From positions 1 through 48,571 of the IMG/VR virus record IMGVR_UViG_3300001850_000317: a stretch of DNA of 48,571 nt. The stretch is one strand, 5' to 3'. A model generated the notes under the pieces. It made no database searches. It worked only from the letters and a program-made list of their open reading frames with translations, and had not been told where the DNA came from. Position numbers and translations under genes: made by a program. Shown here one piece after another: positions 18,277 through 29,555 of this stretch (positions within the stretch are counted from its first letter, which is position 1; each line of letters opens with the position of its first letter). The stretch comes from a virus.

Positions 18277-19055
18277 CTAGCTCCTTGATCTTGATTGTCT
18301 CTGTCTTTCGTAATAGGTAGTATATTGACCTATTATGTATGTTAGCAGCTCAAATACCTCTCGTCTATCCTCTATTTCGTAGAAATCAAAGATGTCTCCT
18401 ATACCAGAAAACTCTTTGCCTAACCATATACCATTCATACCTTCAATTTTATCTGGTAGTATAGAAAATAGCATAAGAGCCTGTTGAGTTTCAAAAGATA
18501 GATCCCCAGGTTCAATAGGTATATCTTCCTCAACAGGCTCTGTGCCCATCTGTCGACAAATTTCAAAATACTGTTCTTTAGATATACTACCTCCAGCAAA
18601 ACCCTGCTGAAGGTATTTCTCTAGTTTTTTGTTGTATTTTCTCTCTTTTTAACAGAGAATGCCTCTAAGTCATTTACCGTATCAGTAATAAACTGATCGA
18701 AAATGCTACTATTCTTTAAAAGCTCTAGAGCTTCTTCTGTAGAATAGGGTAGTTCTTCTTCTGCATTCATGCTAGAGATATCTACAGGAAGTAGTTTTGG
18801 TAGGTGCTTAACCTTAAGACCTGTCCAGCCTTTAATTACGCGATCAGCGTAAAGCTCAACAAACTTATCATTATCCACCTCCTCTTCTCTTTGGCGGGTG
18901 CGTTTGTTGAATTTATACACTAGTGCCTGATTTCTGATCTTTACTAGATCTTCTCTAGGAACATAGCTAATTTTAACTACGAACCCATCAATTTCTGGAA
19001 ATTCTACATCGATAGTCTTGTCTCCAGATACAAGTAGTGACTTAAGTTTTGACAT
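18277..19055 (-). CDS. Tail assembly chaperone GT fusion made by -1 frameshift
   Basis: This is the extended product of the chaperone gene. Ribosomes read from ATG 19055, slip back one base at A AAA AAC (18630-18624), and continue in the -1 frame to the stop at 18277-18279. The result is 144 residues of G followed by 115 residues of T, 259 in all. The T part begins LEKYLQQGFAGGSISKEQYF and has no good start of its own upstream; the ATG at 18549 lies well inside it and lacks a clear ribosome-binding site. In lambda, gpG and gpGT in a set ratio hold the tape measure and recruit tail tube protein, and the T part is made only by frameshifting. The frame relation, slippery site, adjacent stop and hairpin all agree. 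Confidence 0.9.
18588..18615 (-). promoter_or_regulatory. Frameshift-stimulating hairpin
   Basis: In the mRNA, UACCUUCAGCA pairs with UGCUGGAGGUA (one G-U pair) around a six-base loop, an 11-bp stem. It begins eight bases after the slippery heptamer, the usual distance for a structure that pauses the ribosome and promotes -1 slippage. Confidence 0.85.
18621..19055 (-). CDS. Tail assembly chaperone G
   Basis: A 144-residue protein starting at ATG 19055 with ribosome-binding site UGAGG at 19064-19060. It is mostly charged alpha/beta sequence (VVKISYVPREDLVKIRNQAL, later KGWTGLKVKHLPKLL), fitting tail chaperones of the HK97/lambda class, and lies directly upstream of the tape measure. It ends with AAA AAC TAG, where the AAC forms part of the slippery site, so normal termination gives G and slippage gives GT. 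Its start site may be controlled by the structured RNA at 19056-19183. Function follows from position and the frameshift arrangement. Confidence 0.85.
   Translation of the reverse strand: MSKLKSLLVSGDKTIDVEFPEIDGFVVKISYVPREDLVKIRNQALVYKFNKRTRQREEEVDNDKFVELYADRVIKGWTGLKVKHLPKLLPVDISSMNAEEELPYSTEEALELLKNSSIFDQFITDTVNDLEAFSVKKRENTTKN
18624..18630 (-). promoter_or_regulatory. Programmed -1 ribosomal frameshift site (A AAA AAC)
   Basis: The mRNA reads ACA AAA AAC TAG in the G frame, so the heptamer A AAA AAC is an ideal X XXY YYZ slippery site. The G stop codon follows at once. Shifting back one base enters the open frame that continues to 18277. Confidence 0.92.
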
Positions 19056-19183
19056 ATTTCCTCATATTTAAAATAAAGTGGCGCTTACCGTTTTATCGAC
19101 GCAGGTTCAGATGAGGGGAATTCCGAACTATTGTCGCGGTAAGCGCCTTTGTAGTAAAGTTAACTAGCCCCTCAGCTAGTTAA
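19056..19183 (-). ncRNA. Structured 5' leader RNA between tail tube and chaperone genes
   Basis: This 128-base gap holds nested inverted repeats. P1, right after the tail tube stop, is UUAACUAGC/GCUAGUUAA (19183-19160) with loop UGAGGG. P2 is an 11-bp perfect stem pairing 19147-19137 with 19090-19080. Inside it, P3 pairs CGAC/GUCG (19136-19133 with 19100-19097), and P4 pairs GUUCGG with CUGAAC (19128-19123 with 19110-19105). The P4 loop is AAUUCCCCUCAU. Its CCUCAU is complementary to AUGAGG of the chaperone ribosome-binding site (19065-19060), and its CCCCUCA is complementary to the P1 loop plus closing base UGAGGGG. P1 lacks a strong U-tract, so it is at best a weak terminator. A cis-regulatory role is inferred. 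Confidence 0.7.
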
Positions 19184-20440
19184 TTATTTCTTAGCGTATA
19201 GGTTAACTTCACCACCTGTGGTTACTGTATCGACAGGCTCTTGTGCCTTGAAGTTTACAGATACGGTGATAATGTCTTCGATTCCATGAGTAGGAACGTC
19301 GAACACTACTGCTGGCATATTAAATGCTAGGTATGGTGCAGTTGTTCCGCCAATAACTAGGTTTGCATTTGAATATGCAGTGGGGGCTGGACGACGATCT
19401 GCAGCTAGATCACGTAGGAACTGAGCTGAATCTCCGCTGGCACCACGTAGGTAAGCAGTGAATGATCCTGTAACCTCTCTAGCTCCTGTAAAGCTGCCGA
19501 TAGGTGTATTAACCTTAGATAGTTCTTCTGGAGTTAGGTAGGTAATGTTGTTGTTATAGGTAAATGACAGTGCAGTTACAGGGAAAGTATAGGTTGTAGA
19601 ACCACCACTCTCTGGTTGGAACTTAACACTTAGGCTTGATAGTCTGTTCTTAATGAAGCTTGCGGTAGAGATTGAGCCAGCAACGTTCCACTGATCAAAT
19701 GGTTGGAATGAATGTGTAGCTGTTGTTACATAGGCATTACCATTAGCTGTAACAGTAGTTCCGTTATTTAGAGTTCCACCGAATACAGATACTGCATTGT
19801 TTCTTGGTGTTCCTGTTAGCTCTAGGAGGTTGGTTCCCTGACCAGACCAAGTTGTAGTAGCAACTGCATCAATAGCTGCATCAACTACAGCCTGATTAAC
19901 AGATACGTTAGATACCTGATAGATAACGTTATCCATTTTAAAATACATATTGTAAGTAGTTGGAGAACCGTAGTTAGAAGTATGAGCTGCAGTATTACCG
20001 CTAGCATTCTTAGCAGCAGTTAAGAATTTACCACCAGTATCCCAAACACTAGTTAGCTTATTGGTTGTATAGGTAGCAGTATTTGACATAAGAGCCTGCC
20101 ACATATACCAATCAGCTACTGGCATTGAGTTACCAGAAGTATGAATGTTAGTTCCGCCACTAGTATTTTCCACACCCGTTGGGCGAATGTATGCTTGGAA
20201 GTTCCACTCTACAGGGTTCATAGCGGTCTTGAAACGCTTACTTGAGCGATCAGGTGTAGTGCCGCTTTCTGAGCTGTTAATATCCTGTGTAGCAGCAGCT
20301 TGAGATACTGCGTATCCAGCTAAGATTTCTACTTTCCAGGTATTAGCAGGTGTTAGTGTGCTAACAGCATCACCACCGTCTAAGTTTTGTGTAGAAAGGA
20401 ACACTTCAGAATTTCTTTGAAGGTTCAATGTTTGTGCCAT
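19184..20440 (-). CDS. Major tail tube protein
   Basis: A 418-residue protein from ATG 20440 with AAGGAG upstream. Codon use is richer in G and C than most neighbours, as in the capsid gene, fitting a highly expressed structural protein. It lies between the tail terminator genes and the chaperones, the usual place of the tube subunit. The sequence is Thr/Ser/Ala/Asn-rich and beta-type, with PVEWNFQAYIRPTG near the N-terminus and a C-terminal region GIEDIITVSVNFKAQEPVDT that fits a tube-fold strand. It has its own promoter candidate (20495-20523) and is followed by the hairpin P1. Hexamer rings of this protein should stack to form the tail tube. At 418 residues it is longer than lambda gpV (246), so surface domains are likely. 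Confidence 0.85.
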   Translation of the reverse strand: MAQTLNLQRNSEVFLSTQNLDGGDAVSTLTPANTWKVEILAGYAVSQAAATQDINSSESGTTPDRSSKRFKTAMNPVEWNFQAYIRPTGVENTSGGTNIHTSGNSMPVADWYMWQALMSNTATYTTNKLTSVWDTGGKFLTAAKNASGNTAAHTSNYGSPTTYNMYFKMDNVIYQVSNVSVNQAVVDAAIDAVATTTWSGQGTNLLELTGTPRNNAVSVFGGTLNNGTTVTANGNAYVTTATHSFQPFDQWNVAGSISTASFIKNRLSSLSVKFQPESGGSTTYTFPVTALSFTYNNNITYLTPEELSKVNTPIGSFTGAREVTGSFTAYLRGASGDSAQFLRDLAADRRPAPTAYSNANLVIGGTTAPYLAFNMPAVVFDVPTHGIEDIITVSVNFKAQEPVDTVTTGGEVNLYAKK

Positions 20441-20494
20441 AGTTAACTCCTTAATATAACCCTATGAGTTACGTGGTCCCTCTTATATTTTATA

Positions 20495-20523
20495 AGTATA
20501 GCACCGTGCACTATAGGGCGCAA
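20495..20523 (-). promoter_or_regulatory. Sigma70-like promoter for the tail tube gene
   Basis: On the minus strand TTGCGC (20523-20518) is followed after 17 bases by TATACT (20500-20495), a -10 matching consensus at five of six positions; the -35 matches three. It lies in the 95-base gap before the tail tube gene. A hairpin CTTATA-AAA-TATAAG begins at the last bases of the -10 and covers the expected transcript start. Confidence 0.55.
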
Positions 20524-20535
20524 ATAATAAAAATT

Positions 20536-21018
20536 TCAAATGTTATAATCTTGAATGTATACGATTAAAGCTCTTATCTCTACTACTCCGTATGGTTCCA
20601 TTATACCTTCATCTGTAGATAGTGACTGAACTCTGCATTCGGTTACGTTTAGGTCTTTAAATGTAGGTCTGTATTTCATAGAATCTATAATATATTGTAT
20701 ATCTTGAGCAAGATCTGCTGATACCTCTATAGAGTTGTCATCGCTATATATGTATCCTCTAACCTCTAAGAGAAAGCTAGAAAATACTTGGGCATCTCCT
20801 ATTCTTTCTCTAGTTTCAGGACTAATAGGATAGCAATATACGCTAGGAAAATCGTTGATAGTTCCAAGATATTCTTGTTTAGCAAAAGCATTAGTGTATA
20901 TGTTTGTGCAGAAAGTATATGGGCTACGAGGACTGCCTGATAGGGTTTCCTGAGTTCCATCTATTAGCTTAAGAGCTGTGACTATCTCACTGATAATCTG
21001 TCTACGTTTACTAGCCAT
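20536..21018 (-). CDS. Tail terminator-like protein (copy 2)
   Basis: A 160-residue protein; its ATG at 21018 overlaps the preceding gene's stop. It begins SKRRQIISEIVTALKLIDG and contains INDFPSVYCYP and a C-terminal segment DEGIMEPYGVVEIRALIVYI. The same three blocks occur in order in the preceding gene product (RRREIINYLITQLKTING, INDFPAVYIQA, DSGLMDPYGLGEISIVVQYD), so they are tandem paralogues. A small alpha/beta protein directly before the tail tube gene is expected to be the tail terminator (gpU-type) or head-tail joiner. With two copies, one may act as terminator and the other as neck adaptor. The assignment is positional; the paralogy is visible. Confidence 0.65.
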   Translation of the reverse strand: MASKRRQIISEIVTALKLIDGTQETLSGSPRSPYTFCTNIYTNAFAKQEYLGTINDFPSVYCYPISPETRERIGDAQVFSSFLLEVRGYIYSDDNSIEVSADLAQDIQYIIDSMKYRPTFKDLNVTECRVQSLSTDEGIMEPYGVVEIRALIVYIQDYNI

Positions 21019-21464
21019 TAGTCATCCACATCGTATTGAACCACTATAGAAATTTCTCCTAAACCATAGGGATCCATAAGCCCAGAATCAGTATCAATAG
21101 ATTTTATCTCACTATATACTATTCTATTATCCTGGCTATATTTGATTCTTTCTAATACGTGGGTTACATCTTCCATAATATCTTCTAGTTTGTAAAGGCT
21201 ATTTTCTTCATACGCATAGATTCTAATCATTAAGATTAAGAAAGCCTCTGTACTAGCCTTAGAGTTATACCTATACGTCTCTTCTCCTGCTTGAATGTAT
21301 ACAGCAGGAAAATCATTTATCTGATCTATATATTTAAGACCTTTAAACACACTCTGTGATAAGTCAGTCTTAAACTGATATCCATATTGGCTCGTAGAGC
21401 CGTTTATAGTTTTCAGTTGTGTGATGAGATAGTTAATTATCTCTCTACGTCTACTTGTTGCCAT
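21018..21464 (-). CDS. Tail terminator / tail completion-like protein (copy 1)
   Basis: A 148-residue protein with ATG at 21464 overlapping the previous gene's stop. Its N-terminal helix (RRREIINYLITQLKTING), the INDFPAVYIQ strand and the C-terminal GLMDPYGLGEISIVVQYDVD block match the next gene. The central part has LILMIRIYAYEENSLYKLED, which alternates strand and helix like ring-forming tail completion proteins. In HK97-like and lambda-like phages two or three such small proteins finish the head and tail for joining. It has no catalytic motif. Which copy caps the tail cannot be decided from sequence alone. Confidence 0.65.
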   Translation of the reverse strand: MATSRRREIINYLITQLKTINGSTSQYGYQFKTDLSQSVFKGLKYIDQINDFPAVYIQAGEETYRYNSKASTEAFLILMIRIYAYEENSLYKLEDIMEDVTHVLERIKYSQDNRIVYSEIKSIDTDSGLMDPYGLGEISIVVQYDVDD

Positions 21465-24648: not shown

Positions 24649-24658
24649 ATTTTCCTCT

Positions 24659-24697
24659 AAAAAAAAGAGGTAGCCATTATCTCTAACAGCTACCTCT
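24659..24697 (-). terminator. Rho-independent terminator after the decoration protein gene
   Basis: In the transcript AGAGGUAGC (24697-24689) pairs perfectly with GCUACCUCU (24674-24666) around a 14-base loop, followed by a run of eight U overlapping the stem foot. The ribosome-binding site of the next gene (AGAGG) begins right after the U-run, so expression of the connector genes must depend on read-through unless an unseen promoter exists. The CCUCU of the stem could alternatively pair with that AGAGG. Confidence 0.85.
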
Positions 24698-24721
24698 CAT
24701 TTGATTATCAGTAGACTAATC

Positions 24722-25342: not shown

Positions 25343-25357
25343 TTTGTTTCTCCTTAA

Positions 25358-25390
25358 GGGTAGTAGGTAGTATCTCTACTACCTACTCCC
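25358..25390 (-). promoter_or_regulatory. Strong hairpin between capsid and decoration genes
   Basis: The inverted repeat AGTAGGTAGTA / TACTACCTACT, extended by two G-C pairs past a mismatch, forms a stem of 11-13 bp with a four-base loop. It lies between the capsid stop and the decoration gene's ribosome-binding site. No U-run follows, so it is more likely an RNA-stability or processing element than a terminator. Confidence 0.65.
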
Positions 25391-25405
25391 ATACCTAAAC
25401 TAACC

Positions 25406-26773
25406 TTATGCTCCAGAACGAATTACTGATGCCATTGAATACTTAGTTGCATCAAGAGCAGCACTTGAGTTGGTGGTTAGTGCCTTCATATCGAGACGTG
25501 TGCTCATGTAGATTGCAGTTACCTGACGACGTGGATCGTATTCACTCTCAATCTCCATTGCGCGACGCTCAGCTACTAGGAAGCCTGGCTTGTATACTAG
25601 AAGACCGATGTGACGATCTGCACCGCCTACAACGTCTAGGAACTCTGTGATCATTACAGGAATTCCGTATACAGCTCCTAGTGCACCTGTTAGATAGGTT
25701 GCGTTTGGACCGAACTTATCAACTGTGCGGAAGTCTGAGTTAGATACTAGCTCGTTATATCCTTCAATTGTTGTTAGATATACTAGGTGATCTCCGAGCT
25801 GTAGACCATACTTGCCAAGTAGAGCGCGAGCGCTTGCAATATTGGCTGGTGTAGCCTTTGTTGAGTTACCACCGGTCTGGATACGTAGACCAGAGATGTC
25901 ATTAGCTAGAGTTGCAATTCCCTTGAATACAGCTGCATAACCAGTTCCTGCTGTGATAGCATTGGTTGGAGAAGCAGTGAATCCGCTTAGTGAACCGTCA
26001 CCGCGTAGTAGAGCCTTGTCAATTGCGCGGCCCATACGACGCATAGAAGCGGTGCGTAGGAAGTCTAGTAGAGGAAGAATTGTGTCTTCTTCTTCATCCT
26101 TAGCTAGGTGGGTTGTTGCCATAAACTTGTGTGGGGTGAAGTCTACAGCCTTGATGGTGTGCTGATTTGATGTTGGAACGTTAGTAGCGTCAGAGATACC
26201 AGTGGTATATGTTCCGCTAGCGAACTGTGCTACATCACCATCGGTGTCTTCGTCAGCAACTGGAACGCGGAAAGTCTTTGCGTCTACTGACATACGACGT
26301 AGCATCTTTGCGATAACTAGTTCCTGCTGTAGCTCGGTGTATACATCTGAGCTAAAGTTTGATAGGAACTGATCGACAGTTGTTACAGCCTTCATGCGAG
26401 CACCTAGCTTGGTCTCGAATGGTGACTCCTTACGTAGAGCCTTTGATAGCAGATAGGCGTTTGCTAGTTCACGCTGAGTGAACTGAGAAGCGCGTGACTG
26501 CTCCTGGAATACCATCTTGCTGTTGTGTAGAGCAGCAATTTCTTCCTTGTATTTCTTAATCTGAGCCTGTAGTTCAGCAGCCTGCTCTGACTCACGTGGA
26601 GTATACTCTCCGTGCTTGTCCTTAGCGTCAGCTTCCTTGATGATAGCTTCACCAGTCTTTTCAACTAGCTCAGCAACACGAGGCTCGGCAACCTTAACTG
26701 AAGTTACAACTTCAGACTTGGTTTCAGCAGTAGAACCAACTACGATTGGTTCATCAACAGCCTGAGTAGCCAT
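25406..26773 (-). CDS. Major capsid protein from internal start
   Basis: Inside the fusion frame, ATG at 26773 is preceded by AAAGGAG nine bases upstream, the best ribosome-binding site in this part of the window. Starting there gives a 455-residue HK97-type major capsid protein beginning MATQAVDEPIVVG. Base composition shifts at this point: codons become richer in G and C up to the end of the gene, unlike the A/T-rich 190 codons just before. This supports separate high-level translation of the capsid, as lambda does with Nu3 inside C. Residues 50-130 (KYKEEIAALHNSK and following) probably form the delta/scaffold helix cut off by the protease, then the capsid core from VPVADEDTDGD onward. Confidence 0.85.
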   Translation of the reverse strand: MATQAVDEPIVVGSTAETKSEVVTSVKVAEPRVAELVEKTGEAIIKEADAKDKHGEYTPRESEQAAELQAQIKKYKEEIAALHNSKMVFQEQSRASQFTQRELANAYLLSKALRKESPFETKLGARMKAVTTVDQFLSNFSSDVYTELQQELVIAKMLRRMSVDAKTFRVPVADEDTDGDVAQFASGTYTTGISDATNVPTSNQHTIKAVDFTPHKFMATTHLAKDEEEDTILPLLDFLRTASMRRMGRAIDKALLRGDGSLSGFTASPTNAITAGTGYAAVFKGIATLANDISGLRIQTGGNSTKATPANIASARALLGKYGLQLGDHLVYLTTIEGYNELVSNSDFRTVDKFGPNATYLTGALGAVYGIPVMITEFLDVVGGADRHIGLLVYKPGFLVAERRAMEIESEYDPRRQVTAIYMSTRLDMKALTTNSSAALDATKYSMASVIRSGA

Positions 26774-28279
26774 ATTTATTTTCTCCTTTGTTTGAGCTTC
26801 TAAATGACCGTGAAGCTTAAGCATAAGTTCTTTCATACTTGCCTCACTGTGCTCAATTTCTTTCAATCTATTGATAACTTGACAAATTCTATTTGCAACT
26901 ATAAAGTCAGAATCAGTCCAGTCTTTTGTGGACACTAGGTTAAGCGTCCGATTTAGTTTTTCTTGTAGTAGTTGGGTGGTTGTATCTTTGTTGTTTAGGT
27001 GGTTGGTTTTAAGATTATATAAATCTTGTTCGGTTAGGTTATTTAGAGATTTAAAGGTTGATAGGATTTCTTGTTTGTTAGCTTCATCTAGACTGAGTTC
27101 TTTGATCTCTACTAGCTGAATATCAAATTTTGTTCCTATATCACATATATTTAACACTTCTAGGGAAGTAGCGTCAATGTTTAAAATTTTATCAAGATGC
27201 TGGCCCTGTAAATCTACTTGTTTAAACTGGAAAGTTGGACTATCAGAGGTAGCTATCTTTGTAATAGAGTATCTATCTCCGTGTAGTTTTACAAACTGTC
27301 CTAGTGCAAGCTGGCTTGTATCAGCGCTCAGTAGGTTTACAAAAGGAATTGGTGCATATGGATCTGTATCTTCTTCTGCACTCTCATCTTCTTCCTCAGA
27401 ATTTTTAACCTCTACAGTTTTCTGAACTGTGGCTTCTTCTGAGTTCATTAAGAAGATATTAGGAACATTCTCTTCCTCATCTTCCTCTTCTTGACTGCCG
27501 TGAACTGCTGTAGTTAATATTCTATGAGTGTGTCCTTCAGCAGCTTGGATCTGTCCGTTAATAATCTGGTGAACGTGTTCTCTAGAATCAGATCCGAAAA
27601 TTGTGTTACCATCATCATTATCATTCATCTGGAAGATATGATAATGGCCCATATCACGAGTAGTAATACCTACTCTGTGTGGGCCTTCATTTTCTAGCAG
27701 AGCTTTAGCCTCTTCTGGTAGAGAGGCCTTGATTTCTGTTTCTTCAGTCTTATCTTCTACAGGGAAAGACTTTTTAAATTCTTCGTATTCTGCAGAATTT
27801 TCAAAATTCTTCTTAACAGAGAATAGACTTTCTTGATTAGCAGGAACACTAACAACACTGATCTCTAAGAGTTCAACGTCAGAGATTACGAAAGTGTCAT
27901 TAGCCTTATCTAGTTTACCATCTTTTACTAAGAAGCCTACGCTGAAACTCTTTAAGGCTCCGTCTTTAATAAGACTTTGAACACCGTGTAGTTTTTCTGC
28001 AGCCTCGCTGACAGATGCTTCAATATACATACCCTTCTTATCGACTGTAACTTTGTCTACGCGTCCAATAGGGTTATCATGTTTGTGCTGATAGAGTAAT
28101 ACTGGGTTTTTACGAAATCTGTCAATTCCCTTTGCCCAAGCAGCTGGAAGAACTATATCTCCTGCTCTATCTTTATCTACAGTATTAGCATACCCAGCAA
28201 TTCTTAAACTCTTGCTGTTAACTTTCTTCTGTGTGCTATTTTCTGTAAATGAAGCACTTAAGTAGAATTTTTTATCCAT
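25406..28279 (-). CDS. Fused HK97-type prohead protease and major capsid protein
   Basis: A single 957-residue frame from ATG 28279 (AAGGA upstream; overlaps the portal stop). Residues 20-155 are an S78-type prohead protease: YQHKHDNPIGRV gives the catalytic His65/His67 region, LKSFSVGF the Ser at 111-113, and ELLEISVVSVPANQ the closing strand. Residues 165-310 contain paired His motifs (GHYHIF, HVHQII, GHTHRI) and acidic runs (QEEEDEEEN, SEEEDESAEED). Residues 310-500 are charged and mostly helical, a possible scaffold. Residues 503-957 are the HK97-fold capsid protein (VDQFLSNFSSDVYTELQQEL, MEIESEYDPRRQVTAIYMST). Full-length product would need self-cleavage to free the capsid; an internal start probably supplies most capsid (next entry). 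Confidence 0.9.
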   Translation of the reverse strand: MDKKFYLSASFTENSTQKKVNSKSLRIAGYANTVDKDRAGDIVLPAAWAKGIDRFRKNPVLLYQHKHDNPIGRVDKVTVDKKGMYIEASVSEAAEKLHGVQSLIKDGALKSFSVGFLVKDGKLDKANDTFVISDVELLEISVVSVPANQESLFSVKKNFENSAEYEEFKKSFPVEDKTEETEIKASLPEEAKALLENEGPHRVGITTRDMGHYHIFQMNDNDDGNTIFGSDSREHVHQIINGQIQAAEGHTHRILTTAVHGSQEEEDEEENVPNIFLMNSEEATVQKTVEVKNSEEEDESAEEDTDPYAPIPFVNLLSADTSQLALGQFVKLHGDRYSITKIATSDSPTFQFKQVDLQGQHLDKILNIDATSLEVLNICDIGTKFDIQLVEIKELSLDEANKQEILSTFKSLNNLTEQDLYNLKTNHLNNKDTTTQLLQEKLNRTLNLVSTKDWTDSDFIVANRICQVINRLKEIEHSEASMKELMLKLHGHLEAQTKEKINMATQAVDEPIVVGSTAETKSEVVTSVKVAEPRVAELVEKTGEAIIKEADAKDKHGEYTPRESEQAAELQAQIKKYKEEIAALHNSKMVFQEQSRASQFTQRELANAYLLSKALRKESPFETKLGARMKAVTTVDQFLSNFSSDVYTELQQELVIAKMLRRMSVDAKTFRVPVADEDTDGDVAQFASGTYTTGISDATNVPTSNQHTIKAVDFTPHKFMATTHLAKDEEEDTILPLLDFLRTASMRRMGRAIDKALLRGDGSLSGFTASPTNAITAGTGYAAVFKGIATLANDISGLRIQTGGNSTKATPANIASARALLGKYGLQLGDHLVYLTTIEGYNELVSNSDFRTVDKFGPNATYLTGALGAVYGIPVMITEFLDVVGGADRHIGLLVYKPGFLVAERRAMEIESEYDPRRQVTAIYMSTRLDMKALTTNSSAALDATKYSMASVIRSGA
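26783..26789 (-). promoter_or_regulatory. Internal ribosome-binding site for capsid protein
   Basis: AAAGGAG lies nine bases before the in-frame ATG at 26773, within the protease-capsid frame. It decides the start of the free capsid protein. Confidence 0.85.
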
Positions 28280-29555
28280 TAGCTGTTCCTTGTGTATTAG
28301 TATCCTCAAGAGGCACTGCGGTTGCAGGTTCTGTTCTATCTTCCTCTACGGGTCTACCGCCTAAAGCAGGATTTACTGCACTCCCTACTATATTTTGCGG
28401 AACTCTGATCTTATCCATTTCTGGATCTACAGATCGAGACATTCTGAGACCTTCTCTAGCTTCATTAGGAGAGATTATACCTCCATTGACTAGAGTAGTA
28501 TAATACATAGCCTGAGTTCTATTATCAGGTTGAAGCGCAGAAACAGCATATTTATCTGGATATATTTTTACATCTCCGGCAAAGTATAGCTGAAATGCGC
28601 TGCAGTAACTATGTAAAATAGGTAACACAACATGGTTATAGAGAAGTTTTTCATTTACTTCAATATTAGCGTTGTTACCGCTCTTTAACAAGACATATGG
28701 AACACCTAATGCTTTACACATATCCTGCTGTAGTCTATCAACTGAGGCTTCGAAATCTAGCTCTCTAAAGCTGACGTTACTAAACTTTTCTATTTTTAGC
28801 CCACCATCTAGGATGGCTGGACTTCTAGCACCCTGAAATACGTTAGAATAAGTATTTCTCCAGGCTTCTAATAGTCTTTCTTTTACTTTCTGGCTTAATA
28901 CTGAATCAGTCTGTAGCACTATACCAGGGATGGCGTTATTTTTAAAGAACTGTCTTTGAAAGTCTGTTAATGCGTAATACAGTTCTATCAATCTTCTGAG
29001 AGGCTTTAATCTAGAAGTGCCTCTAAATATCGAATCTTCATTATCCGATTTTACATGGATAATCTCATCCGGGTCAAAGTTTATATTATTAACTTTTGGC
29101 TTGTCAAATCCGTAAAGAACAGAACCGCTTCTTAGTTGATACTGATACTTTTTAACAAAGGTTTTTTCATCGGGCTGAATAGCCACTTCGTTAGCAGGTA
29201 ATACATAAAGATGAGTATTGTCGTAATAGAAAAATGCATTACCATCTAACATAAAATCTAGGAAAGATCTACGGAAGATACGAACTCGATCTTCAAAAGG
29301 ATTAGGAGTGATATTAAGTAGTTTATTGAGTTTTTTAGGAGCAGCTCCGCCTTCAATAACTAGCGGAACGCTTGCACAAGCACTGATAATAATATCCACA
29401 GCGCGACGTATTACTTCTACGTCACGATAAGCCCTCTCGTAATCAACGATGGTTTCTGGGACTTGATATCCTGCATCTCTGGCGATGGACGGCTGAACTG
29501 GGTTTAGCTTTTCAGCTAGCCAAGCTCTAGTTCGTCCTACAATTGTATCACTCAA
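28272..29555 (-). CDS. Portal protein, HK97-like
   Basis: A 427-residue protein whose size, place (after terminase, before protease) and motifs fit HK97-family portals: YERAYRDVEVIRRAVDIIIS near residues 40-60, FRRSFLDFMLDGNAFFYYDN near 105, and LGVPYVLLKSGNNANIEVNE near 300. It starts with TTG at 29555 (next Met is far inside), supported by GAGG eight bases upstream. A sigma70-like promoter lies just before it (29574-29602), so it may open a head-gene transcript. The dodecameric portal forms the DNA entry vertex and binds terminase. The C-terminus is Pro/Thr/Glu-rich and probably disordered; it overlaps the protease gene start by eight bases. Confidence 0.93.
   Translation of the reverse strand: MSDTIVGRTRAWLAEKLNPVQPSIARDAGYQVPETIVDYERAYRDVEVIRRAVDIIISACASVPLVIEGGAAPKKLNKLLNITPNPFEDRVRIFRRSFLDFMLDGNAFFYYDNTHLYVLPANEVAIQPDEKTFVKKYQYQLRSGSVLYGFDKPKVNNINFDPDEIIHVKSDNEDSIFRGTSRLKPLRRLIELYYALTDFQRQFFKNNAIPGIVLQTDSVLSQKVKERLLEAWRNTYSNVFQGARSPAILDGGLKIEKFSNVSFRELDFEASVDRLQQDMCKALGVPYVLLKSGNNANIEVNEKLLYNHVVLPILHSYCSAFQLYFAGDVKIYPDKYAVSALQPDNRTQAMYYTTLVNGGIISPNEAREGLRMSRSVDPEMDKIRVPQNIVGSAVNPALGGRPVEEDRTEPATAVPLEDTNTQGTANG

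Follow-up and report, generated by a model that had tools for sequence, protein, structure and literature searches.

A candidate RNA switch between the tail tube and tail assembly chaperone genes of a group of uncultured phages

Long-tailed phages need hundreds of tube subunits and few chaperones, and to our knowledge the setting of the tube:chaperone ratio from one message has rarely been explained. Control of neighboring genes by alternative RNA structures is described in other systems. In the I-complex switch of the repZ type, the choice between structures depends on translation of an upstream reading frame and its termination there. In the infC-rpmI-rplT operon of E. coli, control by L20 involves a long-range pseudoknot over the rpmI ribosome-binding site (RBS). 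In phage lambda, which has about 192 tube subunits per tail, gpG and gpGT act in assembly and are not part of the virion, and -1 frameshifting fixes the ratio of G to GT at 30:1 (PMC5009743).

The locus described here lies in a 48,571-nucleotide stretch of viral DNA (IMG/VR record IMGVR_UViG_3300001850_000317), referred to below as the window. On its minus strand, the gap from 19183 to 19056 separates the open reading frame for a major tail (tube) protein (19184..20440; phrog_3575 major tail protein, E 1.4e-56) from the gene for a gpG-like tail assembly chaperone (18621..19055; phrog_313, E 4.5e-15). These reading frames and family matches bear out a preliminary description that had sited an RNA between tail tube and chaperone genes. 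The RNA element is encoded on the minus strand, as are both flanking genes. The plus strand of the gap also gives a stable fold, as expected with inverted repeats; a plus-strand RNA was rejected because no genes run in that direction and the logic of pairing with the RBS works on the minus strand only. A stimulator of readthrough or frameshifting in the tube gene was rejected as well, because the tube frame, read past its own stop, meets a UGA within a few codons.

Several other features of the window's minus strand were seen. A second structured leader (20441-20535; -20.8 kcal/mol) lies ahead of the tube gene, and a similar one is found in the close relative L230, where CUCUA/UAGAG replaces CCCUA/UAGGG; the gap ahead of the tube gene is absent in most relatives other than L230. 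Two adjacent genes (20536-21018 and 21018-21464), each of which matches the tail terminator family phrog_3907, are apparently duplicates. A single frame of 967 aa (25406-28309) has matches to head maturation protease families over its first fifth and, nearer the C-terminus, to families of major head proteins, and apparently encodes a fused protease-capsid protein.

The minus-strand gap (19184-19056) folds with a z-score of -4.81, and none of 200 shuffled sequences folded equally well. In the predicted fold, hairpin P1 (19160..19183) abuts the UAA stop codon of the tube gene (19186-19184); its arms, UUAACUAGC (19183-19175) and GCUAGUUAA (19168-19160), form a stem of 9-10 bp, and the last G of its loop, UGAGGGG (19174-19168), is shared with the 3' arm, of which it is the first base. 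A single-stranded linker of 12 nt, CUUUACUACAAA (19148..19159), leads to P2, in which the 5' arm GGCGCUUACCG (19137..19147) pairs with the 3' arm CGGUAAGCGCC (19080..19090) over 11 bp. P2 encloses P3, with 4 bp between CGAC (19133..19136) and GUCG (19097..19100), and P4, with 7 bp between GUUCGGA (19122..19128) and UCUGAAC (19105..19111). The 3' strand has an A/U-rich bulge, AUAAAA (19091..19096), between P3 and P2. The P4 loop, AUUCCCCUCA (19112..19121), has 10 nt. A U-rich linker of 14 nt (19066..19079; 6-22 nt in relatives) connects P2 to the chaperone RBS, AUGAGG (19060..19065), and the start codon AUG is at 19055-19053. The closing stem of 11 bp and the two inner stems that had been described from the start are thus P2, P3 and P4. 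The loop, which had been given 12 bases, reaches that size only if the closing A-U pair of P4 opens.

The P4 loop contains a sequence, CCCCUCA (19118-19112), with two potential partners. It can pair with the P1 loop UGAGGGG over 7 bp to form a kissing interaction (-13.2 kcal/mol), or CCUCAU can pair with the AUGAGG of the RBS over 6 bp (-8.1 kcal/mol); these energies are for isolated duplexes and ignore loop and tertiary costs. Pairing with the RBS requires that the closing A-U pair of P4 be open. Both the seven-bp kiss and the six-bp pseudoknot of the preliminary description are therefore present as complementarities, and they are mutually exclusive, as had been claimed, since they share P4-loop bases. 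Two exclusive pairings that share bases, one of them over the RBS and both of them conserved, are what characterizes a cis-acting switch that sequesters an RBS. We favor the reading that the gap is an RNA-only, cis-acting translational switch of the chaperone gene, and we give this reading a probability of roughly 0.7.

Relatives of this locus were collected by searching IMG/VR with the tube and chaperone proteins, plus a sequence pattern, which gave several hundred contig stretches. The element is present in all 122 of the distinct upstream regions that came from loci holding the chaperone start and anchored on the chaperone or tube protein, and none is without it. All pattern-found elements on the correct strand sit at the tube-chaperone junction. 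When the triple pattern GAGGGG-CCCCTCA-GAGGGGAAA was run over IMG/VR without regard to context, it matched away from that junction in only three unrelated stretches (L394, L432 and L443), which is about the level of chance. The phages that carry the element form a large, uncultured and mostly aquatic group, and their contigs are metagenomic. One element-bearing contig (L107, LUQU01000016.1) is binned in a metagenome-assembled genome of the SAR86 cluster, which is either a host hint or a binning artefact. In the T5-like Demerecviridae, the homologs of the major tail protein and of the chaperone are about 30% and about 35% identical, respectively. However, in the four regions read from these cultured phages, a minor tail protein gene stands between tube and chaperone and there is almost no gap; the element is absent from these regions, and T5-like phages were dropped as a source of homologous gaps because the tube-chaperone gap is missing there.

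When the whole window was searched with a covariance model and the filters were off, there was one true match (87.5 bits). A second, weak match (25 bits, 24726-24646) was rejected as an ordinary 15-bp hairpin followed by U8. That hairpin, GAGAGGUAGCUGUUA-GAGA-UAAUGGCUACCUC (24649-24721, minus strand), lies directly 5' of the RBS of a 425-aa gene and resembles a terminator; masking of the RBS, AGAGG, by its 3' arm CCUCUUUU is another possibility. Another strong hairpin, GUAGGUAGUA-GAGA-UACUACCUAC (25343-25405, minus strand), is just 5' of the RBS of a 206-aa gene that follows the capsid gene. At the curated gathering thresholds of Rfam 15 there were no matches in the window or in 13 relatives, and there were none at E <= 5 for 18900-19300, which is consistent with the earlier remark that no known riboswitch class was recognized. 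With no Rfam match and no description found in the open-access literature searched, the element is previously uncatalogued.

The stems are paired in relatives whose sequences have diverged. Our analysis of covariation relies on plain MAFFT alignments, made from sequence only. In an alignment of 42 sequences, RNAalifold found P1 and P2 unaided, with compensatory changes in 17 of 18 pairs, and in an alignment of 17 sequences, mainly from another clade, it found P2, P3 and P4, with compensatory changes in 18 of 23. Thus, compensatory changes were found in each of P2, P3 and P4, the stems in which a lack of covariation would have counted against the preliminary description. Across the full named structure, 95.2% of cells are paired, versus 45-54% in six control versions in which the 3' sides were slid by 1-3 columns; changes on both sides are seen in 24 of 31 pairs, versus 6-13 in the slid versions. 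In P2, all 11 pairs have changed on both sides in relatives, and the 5' arm occurs in 52 versions across the 122 elements; P1 has compensatory changes in 5 of 5 aligned pairs; and P3 is CGAC/GUCG, UUGC/GCAG, UAAC/GUUG, CAAC/GUUG or UUGU/ACAG, depending on the lineage. A tree-based null on a structure-fitted alignment, which is partly circular, agrees for P2 and for several pairs of P1, P3 and P4. By these alignments P1, P2, P3 and P4 are conserved stems, and it is virtually certain that the gap encodes a conserved structured RNA.

A strong stem such as P2 could have a different function. It might act mainly as an intrinsic terminator or attenuator that lowers the amount of transcript after the abundant tube gene, with P1, P4 and the kiss shaping or delaying its folding. 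We consider this unlikely, and it is nonetheless the most serious extra possibility among the rivals. P2 contains G+C and is followed by a U-rich segment (a mean of 5.2 U in the next 8 nt, compared to 2.8 5' of the Shine-Dalgarno (SD) sequences of other genes), and 39 of the 122 elements have at least five consecutive U's within 2 nt of P2. However, two thirds of the elements, including that of the window (ACUUUAUUUU), are without a run of five U's near the stem, some are very U-poor, and a terminator scan called none on the minus strand at the element. Termination at P2 also leaves unexplained why the P4 loop matches an RBS that is 6-22 nt downstream.

In contrast to the stems, whose sequences scramble while remaining paired, the loop core GAGGGG/CCCCUC is nearly invariant. 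At least six contiguous Watson-Crick pairs are found in the kissing core of all 122 elements, and the CCCCUC of the P4 loop is near-invariant across them. Because the core hardly varies, covariation cannot prove it (its pairs are not significant against the tree-based null), and the case for the kiss rests on conservation and on a single compensatory change, UGAGGGA/UCCCUCA (GGGA/UCCC) in L104, the only one found. We think that the kiss between the P1 and P4 loops is almost certainly real.

In 118 of the 122 elements, at least 5 contiguous nt of the chaperone RBS are complementary to the P4 loop, compared to 9 of 139 other SD-bearing genes at the same loci; because these sequences are related, the 118 are not independent events. 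By gene, the rate of matching is 96% for the chaperone, 0% (0/94) for the tube gene, about 6% for the pair of terminator-like genes and 14% for a gene of the neck region. The tube gene has AAGGAG as its RBS in 92 of 94 cases, indicating that the hosts of these phages read the canonical anti-SD. Set beside AAGGAG, the GAGGGG of the chaperone departs from the canonical SD towards the complement of the P4 loop, and as an SD it is a little weaker (median -8.2 versus -9.2 kcal/mol for the tube gene). If loop-loop pairing were the sole demand, the two loops would drift together as the stems do; instead, the RBS tracks them. The P1 loop, the P4 loop and the RBS therefore form a three-way set, as mutually exclusive pairing predicts. 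This three-way complementarity, read from the sequences, is the main new evidence for the proposed switch.

The repeated UGAGGGG could instead be a binding site for a protein. A phage chaperone, the tube protein or a host factor might bind it in P1 and at the RBS and repress translation, with the P4 loop presenting or masking one of the copies. GAGGGG does occur twice, and it has stayed frozen between lineages with completely altered stems. On the other hand, its complement in the P4 loop is equally frozen, and where changes occur they track pairing: L104 has the compensatory change noted above, and in L293 the RBS has shifted register to AGGGGG and still makes 6 bp with its own CCCCCU loop. 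In addition, the chaperone RBSs of the window's clade are merely AUGAGG. We find repression by a bound protein improbable.

Competition for the RBS likely controls translation of the chaperone. In the switch that we propose, kissing between P1 and the P4 loop would leave the chaperone RBS free (ON), and when P1 is unavailable the P4 loop would sequester the RBS (OFF). Calculated for isolated duplexes, the kiss is stronger than the pairing with the RBS in 107 of 119 elements, and the duplex of P4 loop and RBS is stronger than that of anti-SD and RBS in 118 of 122. With energies in this order, P1 is plausibly an anti-sequestrator that competes the P4 loop away by the kiss, and ON is the likely resting state. 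That the P1 and P4 loops are transcribed before the RBS also indicates that the default should be ON. The linkers between P2 and the RBS (6-22 nt) are too short to pass a straight rod of 20 bp, so the P3-P4 arm must fold back along P2 for the P4 loop to reach the RBS. The A/U bulge 3' of P3, which is mostly 4-6 nt and is found in almost all elements, is likely the hinge for this fold-back. With linkers of 6-8 nt, the RBS pseudoknot is hard to form without a sharp bend.

The strength of the kiss might also be taken to mean that it is always formed, and that the element is a static folded spacer, serving, for example, mRNA stability or RNase processing, in which the match to the RBS has no role. 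Besides the energies (107/119), the loss of most of the RBS match in two lineages would fit. L047 (4264-4399) and L104 (4266-4399) have kept the kiss, and only 3 nt of complement remain in their RBSs (AAAGGA and AAAGGU, respectively); two others, L049 and L076, have only 4 contiguous nt. The compensatory kiss pair in L104, where the RBS match is gone, indicates that the kiss is under stricter constraint than the RBS match, and L104 and L047 are useful natural controls. However, a match without a role should not distinguish the chaperone (96%) from its four neighboring genes (0-14%), and to us a static spacer seems about as improbable as repression by a protein. Ligand sensing, which the preliminary description had suggested, is disfavored, and a riboswitch with its aptamer in the internal loops of P3-P4 is very improbable: the fold is compact and the nucleotides UUGC/GCAGAU are conserved inside the main clade, but sister lineages have CGAC/GUCGAU, UAAC/GUUGA, CAAC/GUUGGA and others with internal loops of different sizes, such that pairing is kept without a conserved aptamer core, the context is that of phage structural genes, and there is no Rfam match.

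How might a translational switch of this kind be thrown? In nearly all relatives the P1 arm begins 0-13 nt past the stop codon of the tube gene, and GAGGG is at a median of 14 nt past it, a distance that is about the reach of a ribosome sitting on a stop codon. During heavy translation of the tube gene, terminating ribosomes could repeatedly open P1, freeing the P4 loop and shutting the chaperone RBS. The outcome would be a negative coupling that holds the chaperone low relative to the tube protein. We offer the terminating ribosome as the trigger only tentatively. More doubtful still is the notion of a stoichiometry meter, in which each finishing tube ribosome would open P1 and the chaperone would be throttled in proportion, without a protein or a ligand. 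If true, the meter would be an RNA-only negative translational coupling of neighboring structural genes, which is undescribed in the literature that we searched. The switch probably serves to keep chaperone output far below that of the tube protein. For this large group of uncultured phages, the element offers a concrete and easily tested answer on the tube:chaperone ratio. A competitor that acts through kissing loops would also extend the known means of concealing an RBS, and the element would provide a compact, ligand-independent part for switches.

The proposed switch resembles parts of several described systems. In the I-complex switch of the repZ type, a hairpin loop and a sequence just 5' of a downstream RBS form a pseudoknot that sets initiation, and termination on the upstream frame adjoins the control hairpin there as it does here, where P1 follows the tube stop. 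The likeness is one of arrangement only. In the repZ type, the pseudoknot activates and an antisense RNA competes, whereas in the phage element the pseudoknot would cover the RBS itself, competition would come from another hairpin loop of the same RNA, and a full structural gene supplies the upstream frame. As in infC-rpmI-rplT, the RBS of an internal cistron would be paired with a sequence from well upstream. However, the E. coli operon needs the ribosomal protein L20, has no kissing competitor and consists of unrelated genes. The frameshift of lambda sets the stoichiometry of the same assembly proteins, and the window has a slippery heptamer, A AAA AAC, at 18630-18624 (minus strand), directly before the chaperone stop, with a T-like -1 frame open to 18277. 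This heptamer is predicted to give a lambda-like G/GT frameshift, and similar AAAAAAC-stop endings of the chaperone gene are found in most of the relatives listed. The frameshift acts inside the chaperone gene, on G:GT and not on tube:chaperone, and is apparently a separate device, used in addition to the RNA switch, which would set the ratio of tube to G, distinct from that of G to GT.
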